64,000 bases of DNA from the IMG/VR virus record IMGVR_UViG_3300020034_000010, positions 1-64,000 of that record, one strand, 5' to 3'. The position numbers and the translations under genes were made by a program. Source of the DNA: a virus. The notes beneath the pieces are model-generated. The model saw only the letters and a list, made by a program, of their open reading frames with translations. It did no database searches and was not told where the DNA came from. Of this stretch, positions 20,468-24,936 are shown piece after piece; positions within the stretch are counted from its first letter, which is position 1; each line of letters starts with the position of its first letter.

Positions 20468-20671
20468 GTGTGGCGCTCAATCGATACGAGGACCTTGGCG
20501 AAGCGACCCCGGGTGGCGCGGGTGAATAACCCGACGGATCTGCCCGTCGTCGCCATTCGCAACTACGACGGCCAGCAGGTCGAGGCCGAGATCGTGTATC
20601 AGAAGGGCTTCGTCGAGCTGACCTTCACCGAGGAGTTCGAGGGCGAAGTGGCCCTCGCGCTGCCGGCATGA
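20468..20671 (+). CDS. Free-standing tail-fibre-type beta domain, copy 1
   Basis: 67 residues, GTG start after GGAGG. NNPTDLPVVAIRNYDGQQVE and VELTFTEEFEGEVALAL match the C-terminal strands of phage fibre domains in this window (HELGKIPSVITFDSEDNEIE...IEIRFNAEVSGKAVLN at 49647). A diverged tandem copy follows. As an isolated domain it may be an accessory virion or adhesin-like protein. Confidence 0.75.
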   Translation: MWRSIDTRTLAKRPRVARVNNPTDLPVVAIRNYDGQQVEAEIVYQKGFVELTFTEEFEGEVALALPA

Positions 20672-20865
20672 CCGACATCTGGCGCGCAGTTCAGACCGAC
20701 ACCGGCATCGCGCAGGTGCAGAACCCGACCGACCTGCCGATCGTCGCCATTCGTGACTCGCAGGGCAAGTCAGTCGAGGCCGACATCGCCTACCACGAGG
20801 ACTACGTGATCATCAACTTCGGCGGTCGGTTCGTCGGCGAGGTCGCTTTCGGGGTGGCAGCGTGA
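20668..20865 (+). CDS. Free-standing tail-fibre-type beta domain, copy 2
   Basis: 65 residues. QNPTDLPIVAIRDSQGKSVE and VIINFGGRFVGEVAFGV align end to end with the preceding gene, so the pair is a tandem duplication. Overlaps both neighbours by 4 bp. Confidence 0.75.
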   Translation: MTDIWRAVQTDTGIAQVQNPTDLPIVAIRDSQGKSVEADIAYHEDYVIINFGGRFVGEVAFGVAA

Positions 20866-21065
20866 GTCAGATTCTCGTCAAGAGGCACCTGGGCAAGGTC
20901 GGTGACACGGTGAGCGTCGGCGGCGCCGTGATCCTGCCGATCGACGACTTGGAGCTGATCGGCTTCGCCGCGACCGCGACGATCGTAACTGTGGACGTTG
21001 GCAAGCAGGATGAGCTAGTCGCCAAGCTGCGGGCCGAGGGTCACGAGGTAAGGGTGGTTCCGTGA
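20862..21065 (+). CDS. Small beta-rich protein of unknown function
   Basis: 67 residues, GTG start. VKRHLGKVGDTVSVGGAVILP and a final alpha/beta unit (DELVAKLRAEGHEVRVV). Coupled to both neighbours by 4-bp overlaps. Possibly a head/tail-type small barrel; no family recognised. Confidence 0.7.
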   Translation: MSQILVKRHLGKVGDTVSVGGAVILPIDDLELIGFAATATIVTVDVGKQDELVAKLRAEGHEVRVVP

Positions 21066-21385
21066 GCTTCCCAGAGGAGGCGTGGTTCGTCTCGGTCAAG
21101 GAGGATGGCTCACTAGACCGCAACTGGGGCGGCGACTGCGAGGAAGCGGGCGAAACGCCCCAGGAGCTTCTGATGGGCGACGGGACGCGGATCGTCAAGG
21201 TAATGCCGGTATCCGAGGCGCGGCAGCCCCTCGACCGTATTGCCGATGCGATTACGGCTTGCCGGGAGATCGAGAACGATCGCCACGATGAAACCGTACT
21301 CGTCGGGGACCCAACCACAAGCCAGGCTGCACAAGTGGCGGTTTCGACTGCCGAATCGATTCGACATGTACTGGAGGCTTTGTGA
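21062..21385 (+). CDS. Small protein of unknown function
   Basis: 107 residues, GTG start. Two halves: beta-rich to residue 45 (EEAWFVSVKEDGSLDRNWGG) and helical after (LDRIADAITACREIE; TAESIRHVLEAL). Part of the coupled small-gene run. Confidence 0.75.
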   Translation: MSFPEEAWFVSVKEDGSLDRNWGGDCEEAGETPQELLMGDGTRIVKVMPVSEARQPLDRIADAITACREIENDRHDETVLVGDPTTSQAAQVAVSTAESIRHVLEAL

Positions 21386-22146
21386 GCGGAATGGAGACAC
21401 AGGCGCACGTCAAGTATCACGCCGCAGAAGCTCGGAGATGGGCAGAAGCGGCCGATAACGAGGCTGTGGGCTCTGGCGGTGACGCTGGTCTTGCCGGTGA
21501 CACTGCCAACGGTGAGTTCTCCTGGAAGCGTGCTGGTGTGTTCGCCGGGGTCTCTCAGGCTCATGGAACCGCGGCGCTGGCGACCGTCCTGGGCGAGGGG
21601 TACATCTCGGGAGAGATGGAGATGGTCAAATTCGCCGGTCAGCAGGAGCCAGTGCCGATCGGCGCCGCGGCCGAGACGCTCGCCAAGAAGTTCTGGCAGC
21701 TCCGGATCACCGACGGGGAAAACCTGGAGCCGTGGGACGAGCTGAGCGACGAGGAACAGAAGAAAAAGCTCACCATGGCTGCCACGATGATCCAGGACAC
21801 TCTTCTCCCGCTCATAAAGCCCTCTTCTACCCAGCCGGCTGTTCCGGTGGTGCCAGCGCCCGGGGTGCCCGCCCGAGGCGTGTTGACGGCCGGTCAGCGG
21901 GTCTTGGCGGTGCCGACGGGAGGCCATGTGTGGCCAGCGGTTTTGAAGACCGGCGTTGGGGCTCCCTATGAAGGTGTGGCAGGCGTGGTTGAGAGAATTG
22001 ACCCCGAGAGCGACTTGATCAAGGTCCTGGTTGATCCGCAGGCTGGTGGGCAGGTTGGTCCGACCGTTCAGTTACATCGGGAGCAGCTTCGTATTCCCGC
22101 GCCGCCGCCGCCGGAACCTCCGGGCGAGCCGAGGATGTCGGGATGA
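21382..22146 (+). CDS. Two-part protein of unknown function with Pro-rich tail
   Basis: 254 residues, GTG start. Residues about 1-150 are helical with KFWQLRITDGENLEPWDELSDEEQKKKL. After a Pro/Val linker, a beta-rich C-terminal part (GQRVLAVPTGGHVWPAVLK; LIKVLVDPQAGG) looks like an SH3/Tudor-type barrel. Ends in PAPPPPEPPGEP. Immediately upstream of and coupled to the ubiquitin-like gene. Confidence 0.75.
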   Translation: MSGMETQAHVKYHAAEARRWAEAADNEAVGSGGDAGLAGDTANGEFSWKRAGVFAGVSQAHGTAALATVLGEGYISGEMEMVKFAGQQEPVPIGAAAETLAKKFWQLRITDGENLEPWDELSDEEQKKKLTMAATMIQDTLLPLIKPSSTQPAVPVVPAPGVPARGVLTAGQRVLAVPTGGHVWPAVLKTGVGAPYEGVAGVVERIDPESDLIKVLVDPQAGGQVGPTVQLHREQLRIPAPPPPEPPGEPRMSG

Positions 22147-22718
22147 GCGAGCTGAGCCTGGGCAGCAAAATCGTTATCGGCGACGACTTCGAGGCCGACC
22201 TCCGGTTGGACTTCTTCTTCTGTCCGGATCACGGCATCTTCATACCCAGCCGCTTTTCCATGGATTGGACCACCGACGAGGGGTGCCCGGCGTTGATGTC
22301 CGACGAGGAACAGTGTGGGAAGACCATGCGCTCGGTCAACTTGGCCGACTGGCAAAAAGCGACCGTGCGGATCGAGGTCAACCGGAAGACCTACGAGATT
22401 CCCACGAAAGCTGTCTCGGGGAAGGCCCTGCGCGAGCTGGCGGAGATCCCCGAGGATGAGGATCTGCTCGGTAAAGGTGAGCCCCATGAGGGCGAGCTGG
22501 GCGATGACGGGTGCTACCTGCTGCCGCCAGGCCAGCTAATCCATCCACAGGAAGGCATGGAGTTCTTCAGCGTGGCCAAAGACCGGACCCTGGTCTTCGC
22601 TGGCATCCCGATCGAGGTCGATCCGAGCTTGGCGCCGAACCGCATCCGGCTGGTGACGGGTGTGGCCGAGAAGGTCTTCAGAATCGAGGGCGAAGAGATG
22701 ATCGAGGAGACACAGTGA
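22143..22718 (+). CDS. Ubiquitin-like (multiubiquitin-type) domain protein with zinc-finger-like N-terminus
   Basis: 191 residues. N-terminal FFCPDHGIFIP with later GCPAL and QCGKTM (C27, H30, C48, C58) is a likely zinc site. Residues about 73-146 (TVRIEVNRKTYEIP, SGKALRELAEIPEDEDLL, LIHPQEGMEFFSVA) match the pattern of bacterial multiubiquitin domains: strand, loop, 'tG.elrelagip.d', 'v.l..g..Fftv'. It has one such domain and no C-terminal Gly-Gly. No E1, E2 or JAB protease gene is recognised nearby. Confidence 0.7.
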   Translation: MSELSLGSKIVIGDDFEADLRLDFFFCPDHGIFIPSRFSMDWTTDEGCPALMSDEEQCGKTMRSVNLADWQKATVRIEVNRKTYEIPTKAVSGKALRELAEIPEDEDLLGKGEPHEGELGDDGCYLLPPGQLIHPQEGMEFFSVAKDRTLVFAGIPIEVDPSLAPNRIRLVTGVAEKVFRIEGEEMIEETQ

Positions 22719-23101
22719 GCGACCCAGTTCTGATCGCGCGCCTGCGTTTTCTCGCGGACGTAATGGAAGGCCCGTGCAAGGAGCACGTTGCCACCATGCC
22801 CAACGACGAGATCGACTCGACGCTGAAAATGTGTCAGGACTTCCGCGAGTCGGCCGACCAGCTCGAAGCTCAAGGCGAACTGCTGGCCCTGGTCCTCGAC
22901 GAGATGGCCGCGGCGACCAACCGGGATCTTGCAGCCGACGGTGCCGTTGGTGACGAGGAGGGTGTGGTCTGGGCGAAAATTGAGAAGGCCGCTGGCGAGC
23001 TGCGCCTGCGGGTGATCGGTTCCGATGCTATGCCGGCGGGTATGACCTTTGCCTGGATAAAAGACCGAGAGAAGGAACAGGCGCGCGATGGATCAGAGTG
23101 A
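22715..23101 (+). CDS. Helical protein of unknown function
   Basis: 128 residues from GTG 22715 (GTGA overlap). Largely helical with two Cys early (MEGPCKEHV; LKMCQDF). Ends with a charged helix (WIKDREKEQARDG). Directly after the ubiquitin-like gene. Confidence 0.75.
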   Translation: MSDPVLIARLRFLADVMEGPCKEHVATMPNDEIDSTLKMCQDFRESADQLEAQGELLALVLDEMAAATNRDLAADGAVGDEEGVVWAKIEKAAGELRLRVIGSDAMPAGMTFAWIKDREKEQARDGSE

Positions 23102-23480
23102 CATCCGCATCGGGGCGATATTCGCTTCCGCAGGGGGGTGGAACAAATTCGTCAAGGTGAAAACGGTCGATCTGGAGCGCAAGCGGTTGGAATTCGCGTG
23201 GCTGGGTCGTGGTGGAGAGCGCGGTACTTACGTCGGTATGGGCTTCATCGAATTCTGCGACGGGCGCTTCGTGCAGCAGTCGGAGCGAACCGCCGAGGAC
23301 TTTCGCGAGCACCTAGAGCTGAAGATGCAGGAAGCGGGCGGCTGGACTGAACCGATCGGGTTCGTTGCGCTCGCCGGACTCCACATCGCCGAGGCAATCG
23401 ATGGGCTCGCAAACGCTGTTCGAGGCACCAACAAGGAGGCTCGCAAGAGTCGGGAAGGCGGTCCTGGATATGGCTCGTGA
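23088..23480 (+). CDS. Protein of unknown function with SH3-like start
   Basis: 130 residues. N-terminal beta part (IRIGAIFASAGGWNKFVKVKTVDLERKRLEFAW) resembles small phage KOW/SH3-like domains; the C-terminal half has a helix with Gly/Ala (FVALAGLHIAEAIDGLANAV) and a basic tail. ATG overlaps the upstream gene by 14 bp. Confidence 0.75.
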   Translation: MDQSDIRIGAIFASAGGWNKFVKVKTVDLERKRLEFAWLGRGGERGTYVGMGFIEFCDGRFVQQSERTAEDFREHLELKMQEAGGWTEPIGFVALAGLHIAEAIDGLANAVRGTNKEARKSREGGPGYGS

Positions 23481-24768: not shown

Positions 24769-24936
24769 ATGGCTGTACTTAGCGGCTGGTGCCCCGACGG
24801 CCACAAGATCGAGGTCTCGATTATGAGCTGCGACGTTCGCCGCGAAGGCGAGGATGGCGTCGTGGCTGTCACCGGGATCGAGGACGTAACCTGTCAGTGC
24901 GGTAAGCTGATGACAGACCTGGAGGTTGAAGAGTGA
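24769..24936 (+). CDS. Small zinc-binding-like protein
   Basis: 55 residues from ATG 24769, 7 bp after the preceding stop. WCPDGH near the start, MSCDVR, and CQCGKL at the end give Cys/His pairs suitable for a zinc ribbon. Overlaps the next gene by 4 bp. Confidence 0.65.
   Translation: MAVLSGWCPDGHKIEVSIMSCDVRREGEDGVVAVTGIEDVTCQCGKLMTDLEVEE

Follow-up and report, generated by a model that had tools for sequence, protein, structure and literature searches.

We found that P0001, a 191-residue protein encoded at 22143–22718 on the plus strand of the 64-kb window analyzed here (the greater part of a virus record of 71,263 bases), contains a true Multi_ubiq beta-grasp domain at residues 73–145. 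P0001 is a member of the Multi_ubiq family, yet it fails each feature of a conjugation component for which we tested. We tentatively propose, as the reading that we favor but would not call probable, that P0001 is a non-conjugatable ubiquitin-like (Ubl) mimic that binds a Bub/Bil-type pathway of the host.

The open reading frame at 22143–22718 is a real gene of a tailed phage, as indicated by its overlaps with both neighbors and by a codon composition like that of the structural genes. It begins with ATG at 22143 in an ATGA overlap with an upstream gene that ends at 22146, and its stop codon overlaps the GTG start of the next gene at 22715 (GTGA), giving 4-nt overlaps on both sides; its GC3 of 0.82 is similar to that of the terminase, portal, and capsid genes of the same phage. 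P0001 belongs to a run of overlapping small genes on the plus strand (20468–23480; starts at 20468, 20668, 20862, 21062, 21382, 22143, 22715, and 23088), in which successive 4-nt stop/start overlaps continue through 22715 and a longer overlap occurs at 23088. The neighbors of P0001 in this run matched no family above cut-off. At the head of the run (20468–20865), two tandem related genes, whose products of 67 and 65 residues have a common NPTDLPxVAIR motif, lie side by side, and this pair also matched no known family.

The Multi_ubiq domain (PF14452; 22359–22577, plus strand) was matched by Pfam with an E-value of 2.3e-5 and a score of 24.9 bits, against a curated cut-off of 24.5, and the score rose to 28.1 bits when neighboring residues of the frame were included with P0001. 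Because the Pfam score was only marginally above cut-off, we built independent profiles. Searched against all six frames of the phage genome, a profile of eight plasmid proteins matched the P0001 frame only (E 4.7e-6; next best 2.1), and real P0001 scored 23.9 bits compared to 10.6 bits for the best of 5000 shuffles. A broader bacterial profile, iterated across 69 cellular loci and 48 distinct bacterial ORFs, aligned positions 5–71 of 72 with P0001 residues 73–144 at 36 bits, and the P0001 frame again gave the sole credible score in the six-frame search (E 4.1e-10; next 0.32). Profile–profile comparison with 12 bacterial sequences using hhalign gave 92.9%, an E-value of 3.6e-7, and 30% identity over residues 74–144.

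An AlphaFold2 model of P0001, whose input alignment included nine bacterial homologues that bias the result, had pLDDT values of ~82–89 across most of the Ubl domain, with lower values in loops. The modeled elements (strands 74–79 and 82–87, helix 93–99, and strands 106–111, 124–126, and 140–145) follow the strand-strand-helix-strand-strand-strand order of a beta-grasp fold. When the model was searched against the PDB, the first eight matches were all bacterial multi-ubiquitin proteins, with a target-normalized TM-score of 0.71 for residues 155–229 of BubA. A fold search of BFVD returned no match below an E-value of 0.001. A single-sequence model made without homologues had poor confidence (41.6), but strands 1 and 2 and the helix persisted. 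These results establish the family and fold of P0001. It is highly improbable that the Multi_ubiq match arose by chance and that the domain is something different: the Pfam score barely exceeds its cut-off and the confident model relied on homologues, but the independent profiles, shuffles, and hhalign agree with one another, and strands 74–79 and 82–87 and helix 93–99 are retained even in the single-sequence model. The original prediction of a single multiubiquitin-type beta-grasp domain is thus borne out by Pfam, independent profiles, hhalign, and the model, with a ubiquitin-like match in the profile searches and, when homologues were aligned, a beta-grasp model.

The domain is flanked on both sides by segments without a Pfam match. 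The predicted Cys/His site is present in the N-terminal segment as C27-x2-H30-x17-C48-x9-C58 (codons 27–58; 22221–22316, plus strand), which, as read from the sequence, may be a zinc ribbon; model pLDDT was <50 at residues 48–65, which overlap this putative element. A DUF6527 profile gave no score against the N-terminus. A 55-residue Cys-rich ORF at 24769–24936 (CPDGH...CQCGKLM) weakly resembles the Cys/His segment, and 25 of 2000 shuffles aligned equally well, so we do not regard the two as established paralogues. After the Ubl domain comes a 46-residue C-terminal extension (22578–22715, plus strand) with predicted beta strands and no known family; as a possible E2 remnant, it gave no score. 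In this architecture the Ubl domain is internal, and the protein has neither a C-terminal glycine nor an INPG-like motif, in agreement with the earlier claim that it has no Gly-Gly tail.

We compared this arrangement with bacterial relatives. Among sampled genomes, Multi_ubiq was above cut-off in 9 of 296 from Actinomycetota, 9 of 299 from Pseudomonadota, and 12 of 247 from Acidobacteriota, where the phylum of each sample was deduced from the named loci that served as centers. Weak tblastn matches in Actinomycetota were dropped, the best of them (L031) having given no Multi_ubiq match with the profile. An E1 gene lay within the locus in 67 of 69 Multi_ubiq loci from bacterial genomes and plasmids, a set that is partly non-independent (several loci trace back to a single ORF, and some were retrieved by query); the two exceptions are an interrupted frame with no domain by profile (L047) and a 1.7-kb fragment (L059). 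E2, ThiF, and DUF6527 genes are present in the annotated bacterial operons. Nearly all of the distinct bacterial ORFs (46 of 48) end no more than 29 residues past the last Ubl domain, with a median of 7, and in the remaining two Multi_ubiq is fused to E2. Two loci of the Acidobacteriota sample (L080 and L083) have Multi_ubiq domains with a fused C-terminal E2-like domain.

For the phage, no ThiF was found in the whole 71-kb record, six-frame profile searches of the genome gave no match to E1, E2, or DUF6527, and a Pfam scan of 58 phage proteins contained no partner enzymes. By these scans and profiles, the domain does stand alone in the phage, as originally proposed. One alternative is a pro-form: the Bub/Bil machinery of the host would process P0001, possibly near Gly154 in LVFAG|IPIEV, and conjugate it, and the pathway would be hijacked rather than blocked. 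Bacterial relatives carry a few residues past a conserved glycine (INPG-xx), in keeping with processing, and in P0001 a glycine lies 12 residues after the FF motif. This spacing is unlike the ~8–9 residues after FF in the bacterial proteins, however, an INPG-like motif is absent from P0001, and processing would have to remove 37 residues; we therefore consider a pro-form improbable.

P0001 lies >20 kb from the terminase (TerL; 43656) and portal (46721) genes and, at ~40 kb, still farther from the tape measure gene, which is outside the window, farther along the record; a probable capsid region is at ~53–56 kb. Pfam and PHROG scans of the 58 proteins identified glycosyltransferases, helicases, a RuvB-like ATPase, sigma-factor regions, an acetyltransferase, and virion proteins. 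Several more small Cys-rich proteins are also encoded in the phage. Phage beta-grasp proteins of the lambda gpI (TAPI) tail-assembly type are known (Iyer et al., 2006; PMC1779556), but assignment of P0001 to this type is very unlikely given its distance from the structural genes, the lack of a JAB or NlpC/P60 peptidase partner among the 58 scanned proteins, and its match to Multi_ubiq rather than to the ThiS/MoaD-like TAPI family.

The distribution of P0001 is patchy. The closest phage by terminase (G001; 78.6 kb, 76% identity) shares the gene order that flanks the P0001 region but has no detected Multi_ubiq domain, with different small ORFs following a partial counterpart of gene 21382; P0001 thus occupies a variable, accessory stretch. 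Exact-peptide contig scans of IMG/VR, INPHARED, PLSDB, and GTDB, which are insensitive to distant relatives, found no close homologues. Two viral scans, which were built on a general consensus-like probe or began with P0001, returned no viral relatives; the same kind of probe did recover plasmid and genome relatives, which were then read as real sequences. A match in another phage, to the gene after its terminase (L051), contained no Multi_ubiq match and was set aside.

Three further unrelated viral records contain orphan Multi_ubiq domains above the Pfam cut-off, each behind a different N-terminus, and we conclude that such orphans recur. In the 485-kb phage LR745208, a coiled coil precedes a C-terminal Ubl that ends in Gly-Gly (L049:3452–4171; 30.4 bits). 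The 595-kb uncultured phage LR756511 has a CxxC...H...C N-terminus followed by Multi_ubiq (L050:3713–4219; 24.6 bits). IMG/VR record 3300031885_000005 (77.6 kb) also carries genes for a primase/helicase, a RecA-like protein, and a family B polymerase; its Ubl protein (L093:5554–6246) joins an N-terminal domain of unknown type to a C-terminal Multi_ubiq domain, which scored 59.1 bits and ends FNVTPTNKS. No E1, E2, or DUF6527 gene was found near the Ubl gene in these records (within 4 kb for LR756511), and ThiF was absent from the whole records of LR745208 and 3300031885_000005; LR756511 has one ThiF gene (L052), 200 kb from its Ubl gene. All three keep the domain C-terminal, whereas that of P0001 is internal, and they may therefore work differently. 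It is possible, although we hold this broader view more loosely than our reading of P0001 itself, that orphan Bub-type Ubls are a viral class, differing from one another in their N-terminal module, that serves in counter-defense by interfering with bacterial Ubl conjugation, with P0001 as a version made non-conjugatable by internal placement.

In the mechanism that we propose, the core of this accessory protein, a Ubl of the bacterial Multi_ubiq (polyUbl/Bub) family, would bind through its surface a host Bub/Bil-type component, which could be an E1, an E2, or a filament-capable host Ubl, and the pathway would be blocked because P0001 offers no free C-terminal glycine for activation. The putative zinc ribbon and the extension might supply a second contact or added stability. 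P0001 is probably not attachable and is therefore a possible decoy against a bacterial tagging system; both its binding to host machinery and its action in counter-defense against Bub/Bil we infer. In favor of a mimic, bacterial Multi_ubiq goes with an adjacent E1, whereas the phage has none of the enzymes; the Ubl domain of P0001 is internal, unlike those of bacterial ORFs; the P0001 gene lies in a variable stretch and is absent from G001, and orphan domains recur in viruses. Against it, Bub operons are without demonstrated anti-phage protection (PMC13373217), and beta-grasp domains can be recruited as ordinary binding modules.

The nearest rival, nearly as likely as a mimic, is that a Ubl captured from a Bub-type operon now serves outside conjugation as a plain adaptor in early phage biology, for example by linking a zinc ribbon with a protein of host replication or transcription. 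The further small Cys-rich proteins of the phage, the position of P0001 within an overlapping run of small genes without assigned functions, its unusable C-terminus, and the lack of any known host pathway for this phage are all consistent with an adaptor. By contrast, all bacterial relatives with intact context are in conjugation operons, and a connection with conjugation is accordingly the simpler explanation. The original prediction had offered a decoy for a host conjugation system or an unrelated scaffold, and both readings stand, as the sequence evidence does not separate them.

Bacterial ubiquitin-like conjugation systems are newly recognized stress and defense pathways. If P0001 is a mimic of the kind proposed, an enzyme-free phage Ubl of the Bub family would be evidence that phages encounter such a pathway and a ready reagent for trapping its E1, E2, or Ubl, and it would parallel the viral mimicry of host signaling proteins seen elsewhere.

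In a literature search that covered few subscription papers, we found no published report of orphan Multi_ubiq domains in phages. PolyUbl proteins were described in 2006 in operons with an E1, an inactive E2-like protein, and a JAB or another domain, together with a metal-binding protein encoded separately (PMC1779556). The type 6e operons of that study (Iyer et al., 2006; PMC1779556) resemble P0001 in having a beta-grasp domain of 70–75 residues, but their metal-binding protein is a separate chain with another Cys/His pattern, whereas in P0001 the Cys/His site and the Ubl domain share one chain, without an accompanying E1. The phage Ub-like proteins described there belong to the tail-assembly, ThiS/MoaD type (PMC1779556). 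The regulation of Bub operons resembles that of immune operons (PMC13373217). The best fold matches to P0001 are solved Bub multi-ubiquitin structures (9d59/9d5a and 9ea8, Citrobacter BubA; 9cd2, E. coli; 8u38/9d5b, Methylobacterium), which contain two to three tandem Ubl domains and in some entries are titled as filaments, in contrast to the one domain of P0001 and its setting outside any conjugation operon. Among viral proteins, the LR756511 Ubl is like P0001 a phage protein with a Cys/His N-terminus, a single Multi_ubiq domain, and no nearby E1, E2, or DUF6527; it differs in that its Ubl is C-terminal and of another Multi_ubiq subtype, and the two Cys/His segments are not demonstrably homologous. 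The plasmid-borne single-domain Multi_ubiq proteins of Methylocystis bryophila (L009) and Phenylobacterium (L011) end with INPG and a few residues and adjoin E2, ThiF, and DUF6527, whereas in P0001 the N-terminus carries a Cys/His site, the loop before strand 4 is longer, the domain is followed by a C-terminal extension, and partners are absent; like P0001, however, they consist of one Ubl, which aligns with that of the phage protein over its entire length, including the helix with TGAxLRxL and the final strand with GMxFF.
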